Made by a program: the position numbers and the translations under genes. From a virus, in the IMG/VR virus record IMGVR_UViG_3300025168_000132, positions 1 through 49,853 of that record: a stretch of 49,853 nucleotides of DNA; one strand, given 5' to 3'. Position 1 is the stretch's first letter, and each line of letters opens with the position of its first letter. The notes beneath the pieces were generated by a model, which worked only from the letters and a program-made list of their open reading frames with translations, was not told the DNA's origin and searched no databases. Below, piece after piece: positions 1,099 through 47,793 of the stretch.

Positions 1099-2499
1099 TT
1101 ATTTAACCATCCAGTGAAACTGACGGGGAAGATTGTTTGTGACGTAATCTGACCACTCGGATTTAAATTGATTCGGGTCGTTTTGGAACCGTCTTTGCAT
1201 TTTTCCATAGACTTGCCGAAGACCTGTTGGCGGTATCCCGCTTCTTCCCCCGGTAGACATCCATTGCTTTACGTGCGGGTGAAGTGCTCGATTCCCCATA
1301 GGCGAGTTCCCCGGCGCTTGCCCAGTTGCAGCTGGCTGCATCATTGAGTTTCTCTGACTTGGCCCCATGCCAGTCCACCATCGGTTTTGACCACCTCGGG
1401 CCTTTGTGTTCGCAAGTTTATCCCATGCCGCATCCCTAGCACTCATTGGATCGGTCGAGGGTATATTTTCCCCGATGTCTTGCCCCAGACGAGCAAAAGC
1501 CTGTATTCGCTGTCCAGCTGGACCCCTTAACTCCGTTGCCCCCTGTCCAGGAAACGGATTTACTGGTTGGTCTTGAGGGGAAACTGTTCTTGAGGTGACT
1601 GTGTGCATAGGCCCCCATGAACTTTCAACTTTTTGCTCAGCAGCCCGCTTTGCCTGATCGTTCGGGGGAGGACCAGCCTGCTGCGGAGGACCAGCCTGCT
1701 GCGGAGGACCAGCCTGCTGCGGAGGACCAGCCTGCTGCGGAGGACCAGCCTGCTGCGGAGGACCGCCAATAGTTGGTCCTCCCAAATCGACCCATTGACC
1801 TAGCTTTCTTTTTTCTTCCTCTGAAAGCGGAGCCTGCTGAGGACCAGCAAGCCCCATCCCCTGAGGGCCAGCCTGCTGTTGAGGGCCAGCCTGCTGTTGA
1901 GGGCCAGCCTGCTGTTGAGGGCCAGCCTGTTGCTGAGGGCCAGCCTGTTGCTGAGGGCCAGCCTGTTGCTGACCAACTACGCCCTTTAAAGTTAGTTGGT
2001 TTTGTGCCATTTGCTCAGCTTCTCGCCTACGCTGCAATGCCTCTTGGCCTTTTGCGTATTTCAATGCGTCTTCAGTCCCTTGCATTGAAAGGGGAAGCAT
2101 TCCTTGCTCGGCTCTTTGTGCATTTAATGCATCAAGCCCTATTGGCTCTGTTTGTCTCCAAGTTGTAGTTCCTTTTGGGTTTGCTTCAGAAGGTGGACCA
2201 ACAACCTTGGACCTGCTTCCACTAATTGCGCCCTGAACAGCATCATATTCTTCTTGTGCTCGTGAAAGCCTAGAGTCAATTTTTTCCCGCCTAGTCTGTG
2301 CATTAGGCTCTGGGGCACTTATGGCTTTAGTAGCAGGCGACCCTTCGACTGTTCCATAACCAGCATCCACTTTGGCTTTGTAAGTACTTTGGGCTTCTGC
2401 GTTTTGCCTGCCTGCTGCCGCTTGCCCAATAGGGTCTGGACCAATAGCACCGGGGCCAAGCTTTAAAAGTTCTCTTAAATATTCCATCATGTTATCCAT
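1099..2499 (-). CDS. QQAGP-repeat low-complexity protein, probable virion component (466 aa)
   Basis: This is a glutamine-, proline-, alanine- and glycine-rich protein with no recognisable enzymatic fold. Two blocks of tandem six-residue repeats sit in the middle: six QQAGPQ-type units and then five QQAGPP-type units, separated by about 33 residues. The N-terminal 150 residues are charged and helical. The C-terminal 60 residues (with VKQWMSTGGRSG) look more ordered and end in an aromatic/basic tail. Composition matches the Q-rich internal proteins at 27359-30788, so a structural role is plausible although it is on the opposite strand. ATG start after a purine-rich AAAGAAAG leader. Function is inferred, not shown. 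Confidence 0.75.
   Translation of the reverse strand: MDNMMEYLRELLKLGPGAIGPDPIGQAAAGRQNAEAQSTYKAKVDAGYGTVEGSPATKAISAPEPNAQTRREKIDSRLSRAQEEYDAVQGAISGSRSKVVGPPSEANPKGTTTWRQTEPIGLDALNAQRAEQGMLPLSMQGTEDALKYAKGQEALQRRREAEQMAQNQLTLKGVVGQQQAGPQQQAGPQQQAGPQQQAGPQQQAGPQQQAGPQGMGLAGPQQAPLSEEEKRKLGQWVDLGGPTIGGPPQQAGPPQQAGPPQQAGPPQQAGPPQQAGPPPNDQAKRAAEQKVESSWGPMHTVTSRTVSPQDQPVNPFPGQGATELRGPAGQRIQAFARLGQDIGENIPSTDPMSARDAAWDKLANTKARGGQNRWWTGMGPSQRNSMMQPAATGQAPGNSPMGNRALHPHVKQWMSTGGRSGIPPTGLRQVYGKMQRRFQNDPNQFKSEWSDYVTNNLPRQFHWMVK
1671..1760 (-). repeat. five perfect 18-bp tandem repeats (coding)
   Basis: Five consecutive copies of an 18-base unit (GACCAGCCTGCTGCGGAG on the plus strand) encode QQAGPP units in the 1099-2499 protein. 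The near-identity of the copies at the DNA level implies recent slippage or unequal recombination. Confidence 0.9.
1863..1970 (-). repeat. six 18-bp tandem repeats (coding)
   Basis: Six copies of an 18-base unit encode QQAGPQ-type units of the 1099-2499 protein. Copies 1-3 carry CTGCTGTT and copies 4-6 carry CTGTTGCT, so two sub-families each expanded locally by triplication. Confidence 0.9.
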
Positions 2500-3632: not shown

Positions 3633-3672
3633 TTTAAAAATGGCAGCGCGGCTCAAAGCGAACCGCGCCGCC
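3633..3672 (-). terminator. rho-independent terminator (minus strand)
   Basis: On the minus strand a 13-pair stem with two G:U pairs (arms GGCGGCGCGGTTC and GAGCCGCGCTGCC, loop GCTTT) is followed by ATTTTTAAA. It lies in the 105-base gap just after the stop of the nuclease-like gene, so it should end the transcript that starts at the divergent region. The short T-run makes it moderate in strength. Confidence 0.7.
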
Positions 3673-3727: not shown

Positions 3728-4477
3728 CTATTCGTCTTCAATTAATTGAGGTTCTCGGCTATATCCGTAAAACCTCCCGCACTTCTTGCAGTACAATGCG
3801 TCCCATTGGCTTTTTATAGATGCGCGTTTTTCAAATGGGCCGTGAGGGAAGCAATGCTTTTTCTCTAAAGGCTTTTTTCTGTCGCACTCTGGAAGAGTAA
3901 TCACGGTACCTGTGTGTATTTTTTGTGCCGCACTTCTCTGTTCGGCTATCCTTGGCTCCGTTGAAACAGAAGGCACAAGTGGAGGAATGGTGTCTTGTTT
4001 AAGTTCCTTCATTTCGCTCTCAAGTACACTCAGCCTGTCTCCATTACTGAAATCCCTTTTCTGGGAATGCCGCATCTGCTTCTTCGTTGCATAGCCAATA
4101 ATCCTGGCTTCCCAGTCTTTTATTCTCACTAACACATAAACGTGAGGGATGAGCTTTTTGTCTGGCATCTCAAGAAGCGCCGGATTACTTCCCTGGTGGA
4201 GCGTCGTTTTTACGTCATAAAGAATGCCTTCGTAGTCAAAATCAGCACCAGAGTCTCCGTGTGCATTTAAAGATAAGTCTATCGGCAATCCGGTGCAAAG
4301 GTGAAATGCGTACTCGCCTTTTAAACCAGTGAGATTAGTAGATTGCTTAGACCACTGACGGCTAGTTTTATAGCCTTTTTTCTGAGACTCCCGCTTTCTG
4401 GCTGAATCTGCTATTTCCTTCTTGTAAGGAGATAAGTCTATTTTCTCTCGCCAGTCATGTAATCTTTTGCATTTCAT
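3728..4477 (-). CDS. PD-(D/E)XK-like nuclease with C-terminal zinc ribbon
   Basis: The core reads as a PD-(D/E)XK nuclease. A helix carries Glu in GLKGEYAF, then comes GADFDYEG (Asp), and eight residues later the DVKTT strand supplies the D-x-K triad. The motif order and spacing fit the superfamily. A charged linker follows. The C-terminus has a C-x-x-H (CFPH) and a C-x-x-C (YCKKCG) pair 25 residues apart, which should form one zinc ribbon and could bind DNA. The start is chosen at ATG 4477, because CGGAG sits 7 bases upstream and the ORF then clears the upstream gene. ATGs at 4516 and 4573 would lengthen it by 13 or 32 residues. It is downstream of a DUF1580-like protein and ends before a terminator. 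It could serve in recombination, host-DNA degradation or defence. The substrate is unknown. Confidence 0.75.
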   Translation of the reverse strand: MKCKRLHDWREKIDLSPYKKEIADSARKRESQKKGYKTSRQWSKQSTNLTGLKGEYAFHLCTGLPIDLSLNAHGDSGADFDYEGILYDVKTTLHQGSNPALLEMPDKKLIPHVYVLVRIKDWEARIIGYATKKQMRHSQKRDFSNGDRLSVLESEMKELKQDTIPPLVPSVSTEPRIAEQRSAAQKIHTGTVITLPECDRKKPLEKKHCFPHGPFEKRASIKSQWDALYCKKCGRFYGYSREPQLIEDE

Positions 4478-4539
4478 CCCCAAACTCCGTTTTGGGAGGG
4501 TCTTCAAAACATTCATCTTCCCACCAAATCCAACACATT

Positions 4540-4764
4540 TTAAAGAAACTCTTCCGTGAGTCTTTCTGACCATCTCTGGTATGCTTCAAAACTTGTGTAC
4601 ATGGTGGATCCAATGTATCTAATTTCCAGCTTGTGTACCTGGCCGCTCTTCTTTCCTTTGACGCCTCTCCTGGCCCATCTTCTTACCGTGCTTTCTGATG
4701 GACCACCCGGAAGCTTTGTTTTAGATTGAGCAACTGGAACAAGGTGTTCTTTTAATATATCCAT
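4540..4764 (-). CDS. DUF1580-like small HTH-type protein (74 aa)
   Basis: The sequence pattern is LVPVAQ..LP, then STVRRWARRGVKG, then IRYIGSTMYTSFEAYQRW near the C-terminus. It matches my knowledge of the DUF1580 family: about 75-85 residues, HTH/excisionase-like, found mainly in Planctomycetota such as Rhodopirellula. The first part reads as a winged-HTH recognition region and the second as the wing strand (GSTMYTS). The preferred start is ATG 4764. A longer TTG-initiated reading to 4800 adds 12 residues that do not fit the family. It is the first leftward gene at the divergent junction, so a regulatory role on one or both arms is plausible. This is the strongest host-lineage signal in the window. 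Confidence 0.75.
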   Translation of the reverse strand: MDILKEHLVPVAQSKTKLPGGPSESTVRRWARRGVKGKKSGQVHKLEIRYIGSTMYTSFEAYQRWSERLTEEFL

Positions 4765-4905
4765 GTAAAATATTTTAATGGCACATTCACCCTTTTGCAA
4801 TGTCAGTCAATTGAGTGCATAAATAGTCAATGCTGTACTGTTATTAACAAATTCATGGTATTAAGAAATTGACCCTAAGCGTAAACCCCAACGGAGAATC
4901 AAATT
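4765..4905. promoter_or_regulatory. divergent intergenic region, probable promoters for both arms
   Basis: This 141-base AT-rich gap separates the leftward DUF1580-like gene from the rightward scaffold gene, the only divergent junction in the window. A loose sigma70-like pair on the plus strand (TTGAGT, 17 bases, TGTACT) starts near 4813, but it matches consensus only 4/6 at each box. The element GTACTGTTATTAAC (about 4836-4849) resembles GTACTCTTGTTAAA upstream of the 8004 gene. ACGGAG at 4891 is the ribosome site for the scaffold gene. The promoter call rests on position more than on motif quality. Confidence 0.45.
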
Positions 4906-6051
4906 ATGGACGACAATGAATATCCAACAATCTCGGAGTCCGCACAGCAAAACGGTGCAGTAAATATAGACCCCAACGATTTTAACGAAACTCCCGAATA
5001 TCGTATGGCCGAGGATTCTCCTAATGGCCCTCCCGCTGAAGAGCAACATCAGCATACCCCTGAAACACAAGAGCAAGTATCGACAAGCGTCCTGCATAGC
5101 CTGCAAAGCAAAGGATATGATGTATCTGGATACGAAAATGATGAACAGCTTATCGCTGACACTGAAGCCAGGTACGCTGCAGCAGAACAATCGATGGGGC
5201 AAGCAGAAGAATACCGAAATCAAATTGAACGCAATGCTGCAATGCAGCAGCAAAATAACGCTCATTTGGAAAATTATCAATCTTCTGGGGATCACGAAGA
5301 AGCGGGAAAGCCAGAATTTGATCCTTCCTGGGCAAATCTTGTCGAGCAAGACGAAACAGGCAGCTATAAAATAAGAGATGAATACATCGGGACAGTTGAC
5401 CCGTCAGTTGCTCAAAACGTAAATAAATATATTGAATGGAGACAAGAGAGAAGCAATAAGCTGATAAATGACCCTGTAAGCACCATGCTTGAAGAGGGAC
5501 TTGAAGATGCAATTAATCAACGAGTAAATACAGCAATTAATAGCGCAATGTCCCAAACAAAATTGCAAGGGGACGCGCAAGGCTTTATTTCGCAAAATGC
5601 AGAAGTTTTGTATGTTTCTGATCCTTCCACTGGACAGGTCCAACTTGATGCTGCTGGTGCTCCAGTCTTGTCTCCTGTTGGGAATGCACTAAATGACGCA
5701 CATGTCATGCTTAGAAACCAAGGCATGAATGATCCCGCCACTAGGCATCAAGTTGCTATGCAAATGGTCCAAAATCATTTTACTCAACAGCATATTGGCA
5801 TGTCCCAGCAGCAAGCCCAAATGCAACAGCAGCAAGTCCCAATGCAACAACAGCCTATGAGTTATAAGGATCAATACACTGATCAACCGTTTGCAGAGCC
5901 AACGAATCCAATGCCCCAAGGCTACATGCCAAACACCCCAGTACAACCAGACGCGAACGCGATAGGAGCATATGGAATGCCAGAGCATACATCCCTTGGC
6001 TCATTGGCTACAGCACTAGCTGTTCATAAAGGGTATTTACAAGGTAAGTAA
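4906..6051 (+). CDS. probable capsid scaffolding protein (381 aa)
   Basis: This is an acidic, glutamine-rich, mostly helical protein immediately upstream of the coat protein, the usual place for a scaffold. The N-terminal 60 residues are acidic and disordered. Residues 80-125 form a charged coiled-coil-like helix, and residues 270-320 are helical with MQQQ/QQQ runs. The C-terminus ends in a short hydrophobic/basic helix (SLATALAVHKGYLQGK) of the kind scaffolds use to bind coat subunits. ATG start with GGAG at about 9 bases. It leads the rightward arm. Assignment rests on position, composition and length (P22-type scaffolds are about 300 residues), not on a recognised motif. Confidence 0.7.
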   Translation: MDDNEYPTISESAQQNGAVNIDPNDFNETPEYRMAEDSPNGPPAEEQHQHTPETQEQVSTSVLHSLQSKGYDVSGYENDEQLIADTEARYAAAEQSMGQAEEYRNQIERNAAMQQQNNAHLENYQSSGDHEEAGKPEFDPSWANLVEQDETGSYKIRDEYIGTVDPSVAQNVNKYIEWRQERSNKLINDPVSTMLEEGLEDAINQRVNTAINSAMSQTKLQGDAQGFISQNAEVLYVSDPSTGQVQLDAAGAPVLSPVGNALNDAHVMLRNQGMNDPATRHQVAMQMVQNHFTQQHIGMSQQQAQMQQQQVPMQQQPMSYKDQYTDQPFAEPTNPMPQGYMPNTPVQPDANAIGAYGMPEHTSLGSLATALAVHKGYLQGK

Positions 6052-7213: not shown

Positions 7214-7876
7214 ATGAGTCGAAGTAACAAACTTCCGTTTGCCCAGGGTAAAACGGCATTTGGCGCTGAAGCCACTAGTGTCGATAACCTTACGCGATCC
7301 CAACAGCTCGTTGGGCAGACTGTTTACTTGCCGGATATTGATTCGACAGGTGACAGGAAATCTCGTCGGTCTGGTGGCGATGTGACTGCTGTAATTATCC
7401 GCAACGTGGAACCGAATGTTGATGGAAGCACTACACTTGCTGCTGGCGATGCTGTGCAGTGGGCGGCGGGCTACCACGGAAGTCGCGTTGAAAAAGCCGA
7501 TGGTGGTGCAGACCATCAAGTTGCAGGCTTTGTAGACGAACATTCTTCTGGCGTCAAAACCAACGACCTTTTTTACATGGTTGTTAAAGGCCCGTCTTTG
7601 GTTAATGCCAAGAATGACGGAGTAAAAAGTGCCACTGCGGACTTAGGGGCTGCCTATGGTAGCCACGGAAGCCAGAAAATCTTTAAAGAAGGCTGGTTTG
7701 CTGTTTTGTCCTCTACTTCCGGTGCAGTCGAAACCGACCTTGACGGTACTACTGGAGATGGTACTGCCGTCGACACTGCCTCTGGCAACGTAGTCGGTCG
7801 TTTCAAGAAAAGTGCCTACACCGAAGTTGCTTACAACGCAACTAATAAAGTTTTGTTAAGTGTAGACATTCGTTGA
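7214..7876 (+). CDS. probable capsid decoration or head-stabilising protein (220 aa)
   Basis: A Gly/Ser/Thr/Ala-rich, beta-strand-dominated protein directly follows the coat gene and is followed at once by a strong terminator. Long alternating strands (DVTAVIIRNVEPN, AGDAVQWAAGYHG, NDLFYMVVKGPSLV, GWFAVLSSTSGA) suggest a beta-barrel. The C-terminal strand ends TNKVLLSVDIR. Position just after the coat protein and composition match decoration or cement proteins. AAGGAAATT before the ATG provides the ribosome site. No signature motif was found, so the role is inferred from position. Confidence 0.6.
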   Translation: MSRSNKLPFAQGKTAFGAEATSVDNLTRSQQLVGQTVYLPDIDSTGDRKSRRSGGDVTAVIIRNVEPNVDGSTTLAAGDAVQWAAGYHGSRVEKADGGADHQVAGFVDEHSSGVKTNDLFYMVVKGPSLVNAKNDGVKSATADLGAAYGSHGSQKIFKEGWFAVLSSTSGAVETDLDGTTGDGTAVDTASGNVVGRFKKSAYTEVAYNATNKVLLSVDIR

Positions 7877-7910
7877 TATTGGGGTTGGCTTGGTGCTAGC
7901 ACTAAAGCTT

Positions 7911-7946
7911 GGGCGTGGCTCTTTCGGGGGTCACGCCCTTTTTTTT
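7911..7946 (+). terminator. strong rho-independent terminator
   Basis: A perfect 7-pair GC stem (GGGCGTG at 7911-7917 with CACGCCC at 7932-7938) is followed by eight Ts. It sits 35 bases after the decoration-like gene and closes the scaffold-coat-decoration unit, so abundant head transcripts are separated from the terminase/portal genes. Confidence 0.92.
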
Positions 7947-8003
7947 GTTTTTCTGGTAAGATAAAAACGGTACTCTTGTTAAACCCCAAACTGAGAGGCT
8001 GAC

Positions 8004-9256: not shown

Positions 9257-10979
9257 CATCGACGAAAGAATTAAAGCTTTGTCTGTGGAAAGAGCGCAGA
9301 GAAAGAAGGACGCTCTTCGTATCTATCGCCCGAGAAGCGATAAAATCGAGGCATTCCATCAATCGCTGGCTAGTGAAAAGATACTTCGCGGCGGTGCAGG
9401 TTCAGGTAAATCGTGTGCTGGGTTTGCGGAACTTGCATCAGCCGCAACGGGCATTCCTGTTATTGGAAGGAATGGCGATGAGCTTCCTTGTAAATATCCT
9501 AAAGGCTCACTTTTAATATGGGTTATTGGGTTTGGGTGGGATCATGTTGGTGAAACAATCCACAGATATTTGTTTACTGACATGTCAGGCATGAAAATGA
9601 TTAAGGATAAGAAGACAAAACAATACAGGATATTTCAACCATGGAACGAGGAAGACATTGCTCGGTCAGATGAAATGGAGTCAGTTCCGCAGTTAATTCC
9701 TCACAGGCTAATAGACCACACTCAGTGGGCGTGGGAGAATAAAGGGGCAAAACAATTTAAAAGATGCGTATTGAAAAACGGAACCGTTATCCGTGCGTTC
9801 TCCAGTACCTCTGTTGCTGCAAAGCGTGGTGACGAACCAAACATTATTTGCATTGACGAAGACATCGAGAACCCGGACCATGTTGAAGAGTGGCAGTCTC
9901 GTCTCCGTAAGGGTGGAATTCTTCTTTGGCTTGCCCAGCCATACAGCCACAACCATGCGTTGATGATGCTGTCTAAGCGGGCAGAAAACGAAAAAGAACT
10001 GAAAAAGCCAGATATAGAAGAGTTTCAGATAAGGTTTTCCGAGAACCAGTTTATTCACCGCCGCGAAAAAGAAAAGATGATTAAGCGGTGGCAATCGCAC
10101 GGTGAAGATGTTTTGGCGGCAAGGGATCGCGGTGATTACGTTGTTGGTCACATACTTATGTATCCAGGGTTTTCTAAGAATGTTCACGGAATAAACCTGC
10201 AGGGCTCTGGCTCAAATGAGTCTAATTCTAAGATAAGGAAAATAGCGTCTGCTTTTAGAGCAAATAACGGTCGTCCTCCGGCTAACTGGAGGAAAGATTT
10301 AGTTCTTGATCCGGGCCATGCAACTACTGCTGTTCTTTTCGGCGCAACCCCGCCAGACAGTGAGTATTCTGGTAAGTTTTACGTTGTGTATGATGAGCTT
10401 TATTTGCATAGGCATAGCGCAGATGAAGCAGCGAAGGCAATTGTCCGTAAGGCTGGATCGCAAGTTTTTCAGTCTTATGTAATTGACCAGCGTGCCGCCA
10501 GGCAAACCGGCTGGGGACGTGGGGCAGGGGAGACGACGCACCACATATACAGCGAAGCATTTGCCAGACACGGATTAAGGTCGGTGGAGACAGGTAGTGC
10601 ATTTTCTTTTGGTGCCGATAATGTCGAGGCAGGTTGCACTCGTGTTCGAGAGTCAATGAATGTTCGCGGAGATGGCACTACAGAGCTTATGGTAGTCATG
10701 GATACTACCCCAAATTTCTTTATGGAAATAAGCGACTACAAGAAAAGCGGTGGAATTAGAAGGCAAGAAGTTGCCGAAAAGCCTGCCCCGAGGCAAAAGG
10801 ATCACTTGATGGACTGTTTGCGCTACTACATATCTACAGAACCAGAGTATATTGAACCAGACAGGGCTTTATCCATGCCGTCACCTGCGTGGAAAGAGTT
10901 CCAGAAATTTAAAAAAGACAGAGACGGATCCGACAAAGATGATGCCGTCATGAAGCTTGGCCCCGGTGCCGCCCGTTAA
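9240..10979 (+). CDS. terL: terminase large subunit
   Basis: This is the ATP-driven DNA packaging motor with nuclease. The Walker A loop GGAGSGKS is at residues 51-58, and Walker B NIICIDED is near 201-208. The C-terminal RNase H-like nuclease shows VLDPGHATTAV (about 353-363), VIDQRAARQ (about 413) and KDHLMDCLRYY (about 520) as the acidic-residue motifs. At 579 residues it is a normal full-length TerL. A long insertion between the Walker motifs (residues 80-160) contains a WxxEDIARSDEM segment. It follows the putative small subunit with a short overlap and precedes an accessory gene and the portal, so the packaging genes form a block. Confidence 0.93.
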   Translation: MAQLGDIDERIKALSVERAQRKKDALRIYRPRSDKIEAFHQSLASEKILRGGAGSGKSCAGFAELASAATGIPVIGRNGDELPCKYPKGSLLIWVIGFGWDHVGETIHRYLFTDMSGMKMIKDKKTKQYRIFQPWNEEDIARSDEMESVPQLIPHRLIDHTQWAWENKGAKQFKRCVLKNGTVIRAFSSTSVAAKRGDEPNIICIDEDIENPDHVEEWQSRLRKGGILLWLAQPYSHNHALMMLSKRAENEKELKKPDIEEFQIRFSENQFIHRREKEKMIKRWQSHGEDVLAARDRGDYVVGHILMYPGFSKNVHGINLQGSGSNESNSKIRKIASAFRANNGRPPANWRKDLVLDPGHATTAVLFGATPPDSEYSGKFYVVYDELYLHRHSADEAAKAIVRKAGSQVFQSYVIDQRAARQTGWGRGAGETTHHIYSEAFARHGLRSVETGSAFSFGADNVEAGCTRVRESMNVRGDGTTELMVVMDTTPNFFMEISDYKKSGGIRRQEVAEKPAPRQKDHLMDCLRYYISTEPEYIEPDRALSMPSPAWKEFQKFKKDRDGSDKDDAVMKLGPGAAR

Positions 10980-10994
10980 CCCCAAGGAGTTGCT

Positions 10995-41937: not shown

Positions 41938-42214
41938 TACGAAGCCTTCGTATTATTTCTTTTTGCTTTAGATACTTAAGCTCCAGCTTTGTCTGTCTTT
42001 TTACAAGCATGGTGTACCTTCGCTCAAGGCACCACCATGTCTCCTTCCATAGCGGGTCAATGGCAGCAGCCCTGCGTCTGCGAGCTTGCACTCTGAACCA
42101 CAAGGACACGTTGAATCCAATGCGATGCATGCGGCCAGCAATGAAGTTCCTTACCTTAAACCCTAGCTTCCTTAGCTTGCTTTCTTCATGCACTTTTTTT
42201 GTTGGGTAGCTCAT
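41924..42214 (-). CDS. hypothetical basic helical protein (96 aa)
   Basis: Very basic (many Arg and Lys), tryptophan-rich and predicted all-helical, with ARRRRAAAID in the middle and a C-terminal coiled-coil-like helix (KLELKYLKQKEIIRRL). ATG 42214 has GGAG at about 10 bases and overlaps the phosphoesterase stop. Could bind nucleic acid. The family is not recognised. Confidence 0.6.
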   Translation of the reverse strand: MSYPTKKVHEESKLRKLGFKVRNFIAGRMHRIGFNVSLWFRVQARRRRAAAIDPLWKETWWCLERRYTMLVKRQTKLELKYLKQKEIIRRLRNGKR

Positions 42215-43206
42215 CTCAATTTCTCCGTGATGCCTACAAAGTGCGACTTACCATCACGTATAGGCACGTTAATGTGCAGGAAATCTCCGTCCGATTTAAC
42301 TAATTGAAGTCCATATCCATGCGACCAGTTGCTAGGATTTTGGTGCATGTATAGTTCTTGGAGTTCGCATAGGCAACCTGGGTTCCATGCCCCAATAACT
42401 CCAGCAGATATAGTTCGTATGTGGTAACTGTCAGCACGGTGACTGTGCGCAAAGACCACATTCCCGCCGAACCTTTCCGCATGAACTTTTGCTGCGTTTA
42501 CGGCAGTCGAAATGCCATGCACGAAATGACACTTGCCCAGCTTGATAGTAGATGGAAGGCCAAGGTCATGGTAATACTTGCCCTGCCTATACAGTTGTAT
42601 GCTTCTGTCACTTAAATGCAGTACATGCTCTGTTCCGTAGAGCATACGCAGGTGTTCAGCTTCAACGGATACATCAGGGGCACCGTTCCTTAGTGCATTG
42701 GTGACGCAGTATTTTTCAATGCGTGCTTCGTGATTGCCTTCAAGAAAATGTATCTCTGCACCTGGGGCAGCCTCTTGAATTTTATCTAACAAATCGTTGC
42801 CCGCTGCTACGTCTTCGTCGAATTTATAGGTGGACTGCTCGACGTACCCTAATGTGTGGTGCTGGGCAAGGAACCCCCCGCAATCCAAGAAGTCTCCCAT
42901 AATTACAATCTCTTTAGGCTTAAGAGATTCGAGGTCTCCAAGCATGGCAGCAACAGCAGGCTTGTGCATCTTGCACCCATGCACATCGGGTATGATGAAC
43001 CTAACGTAGTCAGTCTTGCGAGACTTAGTACGCTTTCCCTTGGGGGCACTAAAGTCAGACGACCTGTAGTCTTTCAGACTTTGCTCTGTTCTCTCTAGCT
43101 TTTCTTCCGTCGACTTGAGTTTTTTCTTAAGAGATTCCAGTTCCCTGATGTGCTTCTCTGTCTGCTCAAGAATATCAGAAGCTTTATTTCCTTTTAAGTG
43201 TGCCAT
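42211..43206 (-). CDS. calcineurin-like metallophosphoesterase (331 aa)
   Basis: Metallophosphoesterase motifs are clear: PDVHG (residues 73-77), GDFLD (104-108), GNHEAR (157-162), then CHFVHG and VVFAHSH in the C-terminal half. These supply the two-metal Asp/His/Asn ligand set. The first 60 residues form a charged coiled coil (LESLKKKLKSTEEKLERTE). Related phage enzymes act as nucleases, phosphatases or nucleotide phosphodiesterases. It is part of the leftward replication/recombination arm, directly upstream of small genes. ATG 43206, GGAG 7 bases upstream. Confidence 0.85.
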   Translation of the reverse strand: MAHLKGNKASDILEQTEKHIRELESLKKKLKSTEEKLERTEQSLKDYRSSDFSAPKGKRTKSRKTDYVRFIIPDVHGCKMHKPAVAAMLGDLESLKPKEIVIMGDFLDCGGFLAQHHTLGYVEQSTYKFDEDVAAGNDLLDKIQEAAPGAEIHFLEGNHEARIEKYCVTNALRNGAPDVSVEAEHLRMLYGTEHVLHLSDRSIQLYRQGKYYHDLGLPSTIKLGKCHFVHGISTAVNAAKVHAERFGGNVVFAHSHRADSYHIRTISAGVIGAWNPGCLCELQELYMHQNPSNWSHGYGLQLVKSDGDFLHINVPIRDGKSHFVGITEKLR

Positions 43207-43738: not shown

Positions 43739-44197
43739 TTATTTATTTGTACGTCTACAATACTCCGCGATCAAGAGGGCATCAGCAGTTGCGTGTGTCA
43801 CATCAACAAAATCTGGGAACAAATCCTGTGCTAGCTGCTTATGTCTGTTCTTCCAGTCAGTGTTGGATTCGCCTTTCTCTCTCTTTAGACCAAGTTCTTT
43901 ACACCAAACTGCTGGCCTTACTTTTTCAAAAGGAATGCCGGATGCTGTCATCAGCCCTAATAGCATTCCAAATGACTCTCCAAACTTAAAAGTGCTAGCT
44001 ACTCCTTGTCCCGGCATTGAGTTAACGGACTCAACGACAGCTTCGCAATCATGGATTCCGTACCACAGTAGTTTGTTCCATATTTCCTCGTAAGATTTAT
44101 CTGTCTTTACTACAACGCAAGCATCGCCATTCGAGTTAATGGCACAAATTGCGCCGGACTTTCCTGGGTCAACGCCGATGTAGTACTTGCTGCTCAT
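43739..44197 (-). CDS. RuvC-like Holliday junction resolvase (152 aa)
   Basis: The RuvC/RNase H-type fold is readable: IGVDPGKSGAICAI with Asp10, AVVESV with Glu56, an intermediate helix (MPGQGVASTFKFGESFGMLLG) and VTHATADALLIAEY with Asp139. These are the acidic catalytic residues of the family. About 150 residues is the usual size. It resolves branched DNA made during recombination or packaging. The start overlaps the upstream gene as ATGA. It fits with the SSB-like, Sak3-like and YqaJ genes nearby. Confidence 0.88.
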   Translation of the reverse strand: MSSKYYIGVDPGKSGAICAINSNGDACVVVKTDKSYEEIWNKLLWYGIHDCEAVVESVNSMPGQGVASTFKFGESFGMLLGLMTASGIPFEKVRPAVWCKELGLKREKGESNTDWKNRHKQLAQDLFPDFVDVTHATADALLIAEYCRRTNK

Positions 44198-44997: not shown

Positions 44998-45798
44998 CTA
45001 AAATTCTTGGTCGGGAACGTCAGAACCTCCTTCTTTTTCCTTTCTCTTATTCTCGATCCGAACTTTTGCGGCCTTCACAGATTCATCAAGCATATTATGA
45101 TGACTGCGAATCCACTTAAAATTCTTACTGGCATCGGCCCGAATCTTATCAACTCCCTTATCTGACCGAGCCTTTTTCATCTTTTCAATGATCGCAAACA
45201 TGACATCATCGTCACCCACCGGACGATTGTCATCGGCGGCAACAGTCACTTGACCGTCAGAATTCGCGGCAATGTCTTTTGCTTTGATCCTGGCAGCAAG
45301 CGTTGCCGTTCGGTTCTCCGGCGCTGTGCTGTTTACTTCTTGTACAGCTGCTGCAGCCCTAGCAGTCGTCACACCACTGTAACCTGACTCCAGAGGATCC
45401 TTAGCCCAAAGCTCATAGGCTAAACCGAAATGCATCGCCAGTGCCATGCAAGCTCCTCGCCGGTGAGTGTCAGTAATGTCGCGAGAAGTAATCTTGTCAA
45501 AAGGAATAGAGTTATTCCGATGATCCATGATTGCCTGCGGCACAGCAGGTGTTCGCATTCCTTCCGAATGTTTAATGCGAATCATCAGGTATCCACCGAC
45601 CGGGGCTTTAAACAAGATGCCACCATCGGGTGCCTCAAGGGTTTCAACAGTCCAGCCCGGTGCATGCTCTCGCATCAGCTGCATCGTCCGAGCCCAGTTT
45701 ATATACGAGGCGCTGAATGACCCTCCTCCCTTTGTCTCTACTAAATTTTTAGTCGCAACTCCGGCCATGTTTGGCAGGCTATCGGAATGTTCGTACAT
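44998..45798 (-). CDS. Sak3-type (DUF1071) single-strand annealing protein (266 aa)
   Basis: The signature of Sak3/DUF1071 recombinases is visible: SYINWARTMQLMREHAPGW, then GGYLMIRIKHSEG, PQAIMDHRNNSIPFDKI, SRDITDTHRRGACMALAMHF and LAYELWAKDPLES. The N-terminus begins MYEHSDSLPNM and the C-terminus is Lys/Arg-rich with a helical tail. ATG 45798 is chosen because AAGGAG lies 9 bases upstream. A longer reading would overlap the exonuclease in another frame and lacks this motif. It anneals ssDNA made by the YqaJ exonuclease upstream, a Red-like pair. It ends just before a strong terminator. Confidence 0.88.
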   Translation of the reverse strand: MYEHSDSLPNMAGVATKNLVETKGGGSFSASYINWARTMQLMREHAPGWTVETLEAPDGGILFKAPVGGYLMIRIKHSEGMRTPAVPQAIMDHRNNSIPFDKITSRDITDTHRRGACMALAMHFGLAYELWAKDPLESGYSGVTTARAAAAVQEVNSTAPENRTATLAARIKAKDIAANSDGQVTVAADDNRPVGDDDVMFAIIEKMKKARSDKGVDKIRADASKNFKWIRSHHNMLDESVKAAKVRIENKRKEKEGGSDVPDQEF

Positions 45799-45817
45799 CT
45801 GCTCAAGCTCCTTATAG

Positions 45818-46765
45818 TTATTTAATTTTCCTGGCCCGCATCGTAATAAATTCACGAGCCGCCACGGTATACTCACTTCGCTTTTGAATCGAGCGAACAA
45901 TCTCTCGTCCATTAGGCATGCGAGCAATGTTCGCATCCCCCATTGCGTATTCAACTTCGGCCTTAAGAATCTTTTCCTTCGACTCAAGACCTCTCTTTTG
46001 CTTCCGAAGGTCTTCGACCTGCATCCATTTTTCAACCAGCTCATCTTCTAGATTAATAACAACACCCTCTCGAACGCTGTGAAGCTTGCTAATAATCTCT
46101 GGTGTTTTGGGATGTTCCCAGTCGACAGGTGGTGGGTTGTCTGCTTCGACTCGCTGCATCATGTCAGCCGAAGCATCGATAATCGCATCGATAATGCTAT
46201 CGTCCCGAGGCACCACATAAACACGATGCTCAAGGCCAACCCAAACCGGAACATCGCATCGCTCGGTTTCGGTGACGGCCATGTGCTGCTGGCACTGGAT
46301 GAGATACTCATTCGGGATTGCATCCGTTCCTTCCTCTCCCCATTCGGCATACATCTCCGAGGTCTTCGCTTCGACAGGAATGTAGTCAAGCGCGAATGAC
46401 CATGGCAACTTCTCTAGATTTACCTCTTCAGAGCACCACAAGGCGTCAGGTGTGCATGAAAGGAAGGTATGTTTCGGATGGATCAGCATCGGGCAATCCA
46501 TATAAAGCGTACCACCCACTCGCTGCTGATACATCGACAAGCAGGCAGGCTCAAGCGCGTGACCTCGACGCATTGCGTCCGTCATTGGATCGTGATCGCT
46601 CGGATCCTTTTTCTTCTCCATGAAAACATCGAGCGCCTGCCCATATCGCGACATGCCCAATACTTTTGACGACTCGCTCGCCCCAATAGTTTTCTTCCTC
46701 GCTTCGTACCATTCTTTTGTGTACGCCATCGGGCCGGTAACAGGAAGCTCTTTTGTCTCAGCCAT
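45818..46765 (-). CDS. YqaJ-type (lambda-exonuclease-like) recombination exonuclease (315 aa)
   Basis: The YqaJ exonuclease core can be read: WYEARKKTIGASESSKVLG (residues 19-37), RRGHALEP with Glu72, HPKHTFLSCTPDALW with Asp107, the PVEAKT motif (E132, K134), and IPNEYLIQCQQHM (150-162) with the Q-x-x residues that bind DNA ends. It degrades one strand from dsDNA ends, giving substrate to the Sak3-like protein. ATG 46765 follows GGAG at 7-8 bases. An upstream start at 46861 adds 32 hydrophobic residues that overlap the adjacent gene and are implausible. C-terminal 90 residues are a charged coiled coil. Confidence 0.9.
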   Translation of the reverse strand: MAETKELPVTGPMAYTKEWYEARKKTIGASESSKVLGMSRYGQALDVFMEKKKDPSDHDPMTDAMRRGHALEPACLSMYQQRVGGTLYMDCPMLIHPKHTFLSCTPDALWCSEEVNLEKLPWSFALDYIPVEAKTSEMYAEWGEEGTDAIPNEYLIQCQQHMAVTETERCDVPVWVGLEHRVYVVPRDDSIIDAIIDASADMMQRVEADNPPPVDWEHPKTPEIISKLHSVREGVVINLEDELVEKWMQVEDLRKQKRGLESKEKILKAEVEYAMGDANIARMPNGREIVRSIQKRSEYTVAAREFITMRARKIK

Positions 46766-46976
46766 TATCGTTCTCCATTTCAATAACATTTTTAACAATG
46801 TGCCGGTCAACAATAACCAAAGCACGGTAATCTTTATTCTCTTCGCTCGGGCCGGTAACAATCACTCGCCCAGTCTTTCGGTATTCAGGATCGAGAGTTG
46901 ATGTCTCGCTGAAGGCAAGCTTACTGCCGACAGCCCCCTTTAACCAGACCACATTTTTATAAGGAACGACCAGCAT
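46758..46976 (-). CDS. hypothetical small protein (72 aa)
   Basis: Beta-rich (MLVVPYKNVVWLKG, RVIVTGPSEEN, YRALVIVDRHIVK), with no recognisable family. ATG 46976 is preferred, because GGGGGGT lies 6 bases upstream. An ATG at 46991 is less good. It overlaps the exonuclease start by 8 bases, so it is co-translated with it and may be an accessory or inhibitor of that enzyme. Confidence 0.55.
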   Translation of the reverse strand: MLVVPYKNVVWLKGAVGSKLAFSETSTLDPEYRKTGRVIVTGPSEENKDYRALVIVDRHIVKNVIEMENDNG

Positions 46977-46977
46977 G

Positions 46978-47793
46978 CTAGCACCCCCCATTCATGTGTT
47001 TGTTCCAGATTTTACGCCGACCACTTGGTTTGCATCTAGGCATCAGTACATCAATCCTCTTCCATATTGTTTGAATCCTACCCTTTTTGAAAGGGCGATC
47101 CTTTGAGAAGTGTTGCTCCGATATATACGCTCTTCTCTCGTGCTTGGCTAAAACTTTTTCCACGGTATCTGCAATTTGTTGAAAGCTCAGACCGCAGTGC
47201 TCGCGGAGAAACCGGATCAGCCTATAGACGGGTCTGTTTTCAGCATCGAAAACATACCGCTGATTCTTTCCGTGACCCACGCTTCGCATCCCAGTCGGAG
47301 CCTTCTGGTTGACAGCCTGCATCCTCCGCTTCTTCTCAGCCAGCCCTTCCTTGATCCTCTGCGAACGAAGCCTGCTTTCAAACTGAGCGAACCCAGCTTG
47401 CATCGTGAAGTTAAGTTCGCCATAAGGTGTAGACATGTCGATGTTATCGCGCACTGAAACAAGCGTGATGTCATCTTTGTGCCATGCTTCCATCTGGCTG
47501 AGTGCGTCCGAGCTTCGCCGGAACGCTCGGTCAAGAGTGCTAATGATAATCACATCTCCAGAGCGGAGCTTTGAGCAGAGCACTTTCGCCGTCTTGCGTT
47601 TCCTGAACTCAATCTTAAACGCTGACTCCCCGCCATCGACAAACACGCCACCCCACTTGAGGCTTTTATATTTGTCGTTGGTGAGTAGCAAATTGTACTG
47701 TTGCTCAACCATCCTCTTCTGTGCATCGAGTGAATAACCGAGCTTCTCCTGCTGATCGGTTGACACTCGGATGTATCCGTAAGCCTTGCTCAT
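46978..47793 (-). CDS. serine recombinase / resolvase (271 aa)
   Basis: The N-terminal catalytic domain has YGYIRVSTD with Ser11, then FVDGGESAFKIEFRKRK, SGDVIIISTLDRAFRR (the R-x-x-x-D-R catalytic area), and TPYGELNFTMQAGFAQFE. The C-terminal part (GFAQFESRLRSQRIKEGL, then LSFQQIADTVEKVLAKH and a basic tail) is a DNA-binding helix-turn-helix. At 271 residues it is a small-to-medium serine recombinase, not a large integrase. It could invert or resolve DNA, or integrate the phage. No attachment site was found beside it. ATG 47793 follows GGAGAATGAGCA, a leader shared with the neighbouring gene. Confidence 0.85.
   Translation of the reverse strand: MSKAYGYIRVSTDQQEKLGYSLDAQKRMVEQQYNLLLTNDKYKSLKWGGVFVDGGESAFKIEFRKRKTAKVLCSKLRSGDVIIISTLDRAFRRSSDALSQMEAWHKDDITLVSVRDNIDMSTPYGELNFTMQAGFAQFESRLRSQRIKEGLAEKKRRMQAVNQKAPTGMRSVGHGKNQRYVFDAENRPVYRLIRFLREHCGLSFQQIADTVEKVLAKHERRAYISEQHFSKDRPFKKGRIQTIWKRIDVLMPRCKPSGRRKIWNKHMNGGC

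Follow-up and report, generated by a model that had tools for sequence, protein, structure and literature searches.

The locus examined here raises the question of whether a small group of genes transcribed away from the capsid operon of an uncultured virus was acquired as an accessory insertion or belongs to the virus lineage, and of what its products are likely to do. In a sequence-only reading of the virus record (49,853 bases, hereafter the window), the stretch between 3728 and 4764 had been described as a two-gene unit led by a DUF1580 protein and closed by a terminator. Comparison with related viruses indicates that the unit is genuine and conserved, with an anatomy that has to be corrected and with biochemical roles that are predicted. 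In the window it consists of three genes on the minus strand, divergent from the capsid operon: a 74-residue DUF1580 (PF07618) winged helix-turn-helix (wHTH) protein (4540-4764), assigned by profile match and structural model; a micro-ORF of 27 codons (4455-4538, MCWIWWEDECFEDPPKTEFGDEMQKIT), recognized by its comparative substitution pattern; and a PD-(D/E)XK-type nuclease-like protein of 249 residues (3728-4477, with ATG 4477 as the likely start), identified by its invariant core residues. The DUF1580 gene does come first and the nuclease-like gene follows closely downstream, but the micro-ORF had been overlooked because the list of open reading frames was cut off at 40 amino acids. Likewise, an intrinsic terminator exists (14 base pairs, 10 of them GC), but it is located at 3642-3672 of the minus strand, outside the interval to which it had been assigned.

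Scans with capsid proteins recovered nine related contigs. The divergent junction is spanned by four distinct viruses, represented by the window together with the near-identical contig L002, by L003 and L004, by L006 and by L020; the remaining related contigs stop short of it. These relatives establish the gene boundaries of the unit. The nuclease most likely starts at ATG 4477 because the frame of the L006 homologue has its first start codon only at the equivalent position, a GGAG is found just upstream of this ATG, and the extension from 4478 to 4573, when read as nuclease frame, displays a dN of 0.24 and a dS of 0, with amino acids that vary freely. The alternative start at 4573 was rejected, both the reading frame of L006 and the pattern of substitutions being at odds with it. 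The micro-ORF, previously unseen, begins beside the DUF1580 stop codon, overlaps the nuclease start and is present in the window, L003 and L006. Among these three sequences, 11 of the 13 variable columns fall at codon position 3 and none at position 2 (binomial P for the third-position bias, 2e-4), an indel of 3 nt keeps the frame, and dN is 0.019. The predicted microprotein of 27 residues is Trp-rich and acidic, and a DNA scan with the micro-ORF gave matches only in the same viruses. In L020, the most distant relative, the micro-ORF is absent, the stretch itself being missing, and the DUF1580 stop directly overlaps the nuclease start region.

The DUF1580/nuclease pair was found at the junction, beside the scaffold-like and capsid genes, in all four distinct viruses. 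In the three other than the window, identity to the window proteins is 57-84% for the nuclease and 66-81% for the DUF1580 protein. Relative to L003, the nuclease gene shows a dN of 0.11 and a dS of 1.6, and relative to the other viruses dS is saturated. Occupation of the same locus in four of four viruses means that the pair is not sporadic and, as judged from these comparisons, it is part of the lineage core and not an occasional insertion. The designation of the unit as a moron, for which sporadic presence is expected, was therefore rejected, and its GC content deviates by only -1.6 sd. The description of the unit as self-contained is supported only in part. In the window, the unit has a sigma-70-like promoter candidate (TTGCAA-17-TAAAAT, 4772-4800, minus strand) that matches at 9 of 12 positions, which by itself is no better than chance, and promoter-like sites are found in a similar place before the DUF1580 gene of L006 (10/12) and L020 (11/12). 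The 113-nt terminator region of the window folds at -36.2 kcal/mol (z -2.3); however, the terminator scan was positive in only one of three relatives, a similar site being found in L006 and none in L003 or L020.

A superinfection-exclusion role was also considered for the unit, in which the nuclease would attack competing or host DNA, the DUF1580 protein would autoregulate and the microprotein would restrain the nuclease. The promoter-like site and strong terminator flanking the unit in the window, its slightly low GC content and the overlap of the Trp-rich acidic microprotein with the nuclease start are compatible with such an accessory function. Nevertheless, we consider it unlikely, since the pair is retained at the same locus in every distinct relative, the search for defence systems with PADLOC returned no match, and the microprotein is missing in the more distant L020.

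The PD-(D/E)XK-type core proposed for the nuclease-like protein was supported by an alignment of 12 diverse sequences, in which relatives are about 23-84% identical to the window protein. Residues E55, D79, D88 and K90 are invariant, with no broken core among the homologues, and they occur in the order E, D, DxK expected for PD-(D/E)XK enzymes. The shared core comprises about residues 10-160 (about 155 amino acids). A zinc ribbon had also been proposed, and a C-terminal CxxH...CxxC zinc-ribbon-like motif (about residues 213-242) is in fact conserved in the four lineage members and, among the sequences aligned, is restricted to the lineage of the window. Sequence searches of Pfam, NCBIfam, PADLOC and the PDB gave no match for this protein. 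Its structural model has a mean pLDDT of 66, with higher values in the core (fair confidence), and the PDB fold matches are weak (best E 0.013) and mostly to restriction-type PD-(D/E)XK enzymes such as NaeI, HincII and EcoRV, which have the motif order E, D, DxK in common with the window nuclease but no detectable sequence similarity to it. At E<=1e-3, 41 viral structure models matched, nearly all of them uncharacterised. The closest family identified is PHROG_18407, of unknown function, whose profile matches the window nuclease with an E-value of 0.0018 and is matched by 11 of the 12 members (best 2.3e-11). This family and its relatives, for example gp09 of the Methylophilales phage MEP301, share the E/D/DxK core of about 155 residues, whereas the window protein carries in addition the zinc-ribbon-like extension and is encoded outside the recombination module. 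It appears to represent a branch, marked by its zinc-ribbon tail, of a phage nuclease family that is uncharacterised and otherwise located in recombination modules. The relative in the Mycobacterium phage Antsirabe adjoins RecB-like and RecT-like genes, and those of MEP301 and L014 adjoin YqaJ and ERF genes; no DUF1580 partner was found beside distant relatives of the nuclease. Antsirabe gene 41 (L051:4007-4501) is annotated as an HNH endonuclease, a label that looks doubtful given that its product belongs to the PD-(D/E)XK-type family described here.

The identification of the first protein as a member of DUF1580 was confirmed by profile search, with 26.1 bits for the protein encoded at 4540-4764 against a Pfam gathering cut-off of 24.4, and 25.1 bits in a six-frame search; the homologues in L020 and L007 likewise exceed the cut-off. 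The function of this family is not known, and our literature search found no paper naming DUF1580. The AlphaFold2 model (pLDDT 90.2) displays a helix-turn-helix followed by a two-strand wing and a helix. Its nearest fold in the PDB is the excisionase RdfS (E 0.57), with TorI and lambda Xis ranking lower and all E-values above 0.5. The model supports the prediction that the DUF1580 protein is an excisionase-type wHTH DNA-binding protein. The locus supplies this family with a genomic context, at the head of a nuclease unit beside capsid genes, and with a predicted function. Two tandem DUF1580-like genes, one of them over the Pfam cut-off, are located immediately ahead of a RecB/YqaJ-like gene in L007:1297-2958. 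MEP301 gp10 was evaluated as an equivalent of the DUF1580 protein and rejected, its alignment being no better than noise.

The resemblance to RdfS, TorI and Xis in predicted fold and size, and the presence of a serine recombinase gene in the window, would be in agreement with the DUF1580 protein being the recombination directionality factor of the phage integration system and the nuclease a bystander. We find this very unlikely, as no integrase adjoins the DUF1580 gene, the serine recombinase (46978-47793, minus strand) being encoded near the opposite end of the window, and characterised wHTH directionality factors act with tyrosine recombinases (PMC11963761), unlike the serine enzyme of the window. 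Furthermore, excisionase-type direct repeats one helical turn apart (spacing 10 or 11) were not significant in any of the four junctions scanned (p 0.125-0.99). The DUF1580 protein differs from the excisionases in its fold E-values and in having no sequence match to them, no adjacent tyrosine integrase and no significant direct-repeat operators. Another excisionase-type wHTH protein, Apl of phage 186, also represses the phage early promoters in the switch region, using direct repeats spaced 10-11 bp (PMC7498355). Apl works between the early promoters of its phage and offers a precedent for regulation by a protein of this type. Since repeats at Apl-type spacings are not above chance in the junctions, we infer only that the DUF1580 protein might regulate this region, including the divergent promoter that it had been suggested to control.

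Given that distant relatives of the nuclease adjoin RecB/YqaJ and RecT/ERF genes, we favor, tentatively and at slightly under an even chance, an endonuclease associated with recombination and partnered by a DNA-binding protein, in a conserved unit of one uncultured virus lineage. The unit would probably be expressed early, divergently from the capsid operon, and the DUF1580 wHTH protein would regulate transcription around its own promoter. The nuclease would most likely cut branched or recombination-intermediate DNA, its C-terminal zinc ribbon helping in binding or positioning, and the micro-ORF, where present, would couple translation of the DUF1580 and nuclease genes and may modulate the nuclease. 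This proposal draws on the DUF1580 score above cut-off, the excisionase folds at the top of the structural matches, the invariant nuclease core, the pair in four of four viruses and the recombination genes that neighbor the relatives. Against it, the virus already encodes a RuvC-like resolvase (43739-44197, minus strand), and the nuclease lies far from the YqaJ/Sak module of its own genome (44998-46861), formed on the minus strand by a Sak annealing protein (44998-46044) and a YqaJ/RecE-like exonuclease (45818-46861). With these genes and the serine recombinase all located at 43.7-47.8 kb, the window nuclease stands apart from the recombination genes. The junction without excisionase-type repeats, the weak PDB folds and the low mean pLDDT of the nuclease model also count against the proposal. 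The recombination module as a whole occupies 38-49.8 kb of the minus strand and also contains a metallophosphoesterase gene (42211-43206, minus strand); several such gene kinds are found together in MEP301 too.

A functional link between the DUF1580 protein and the nuclease is putative, because the distant nuclease relatives are not accompanied by DUF1580. Together with the L007 DUF1580-like genes, which have a different setting, next to a RecB/YqaJ-like gene, this would fit two neighbors without a functional relationship that are transcribed together and stably placed. The tight coupling observed in four of four viruses, with a stop/start overlap in L020 and overlapping cistrons in the window, argues against mere neighborhood, which we consider improbable.

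The junction carries a candidate extended -10 of the rightward transcript (TGGTATTAA, 4856-4864, plus strand), recognized by eye in the four aligned junctions, in all of which similar sequences occupy the same alignment columns. The motif AACCCCA is also found at the same junction position in the four viruses. An AACCCCAA box is located on the plus strand at 4884-4891, 22 nt before the scaffold-like gene starting at 4906, and further plus-strand boxes are found at 7982-7989 and 10978-10985, so that the three lie 17-22 nt before the genes at 4906, 8004 and 10995, all of them late genes. Three of the four plus-strand occurrences of AACCCCAA lie before gene starts (P ~1e-5, for a motif chosen post hoc), it is the only 8-mer found in at least three of 24 leaders, and the boxes are found again in leaders of the relatives.

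Complementary to these boxes is UUGGGGUU, contained in a 72-nt noncoding element (7874-7945, plus strand) that was recognized by its conservation, is placed directly after the gene stop at 7876 and ends in an intrinsic terminator. Mean identity over five relatives is ~98.7% (98-99%) against a background of 75-80%, and no other 60-mer from 4.5 to 15.1 kb is as strongly conserved as the one within the element. Eight viruses share, unchanged, the 16 nt at its start (TGATATTGGGGTTGGC), which contain TTGGGGTT; the terminator stem that follows varies, in L020 and L022, in an apparently compensatory manner. On this comparative evidence, the element may be a 3'-UTR-derived phage sRNA. An RNA role is favored over a promoter operator because the end of the terminase gene and one AACCCCAA box overlap in the middle of a transcript. 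By predicted duplex energy, the box leaders take ranks 1, 3 and 6 of 43; random 51-mers, however, equal these energies 1-15% of the time, and the case for an sRNA thus relies on conservation and not on energy. If this were true, UUGGGGUU/AACCCCAA pairing would reach the scaffold-like gene and two other late genes through their leaders, exposing a possible phage sRNA network. A two-level control of the junction, with the DUF1580 protein acting on DNA, the 3'-UTR sRNA pairing through UUGGGGUU with the AACCCCAA leaders and the microprotein gating the nuclease, could be envisaged, and we regard this combination as rather doubtful.

The DUF1580 protein had also been taken as a clue to the host, this being a family that we presume to be linked to planctomycetes. 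It was not found in 14 control genomes, two genome scans aimed at the host confirmed no relative, and plasmid searches gave matches at chance level only. A circular permutation joining the ends of the window was rejected, as there is no terminal repeat and L002 extends past the left end with sequence that is not part of the window. To the left of the unit, an ORF of 466 amino acids (1099-2499, minus strand) contains short in-frame tandem repeats (QQAGP units) at 1667-1969, whose copies cross-match, and L002 is slightly shorter over this repeat region.
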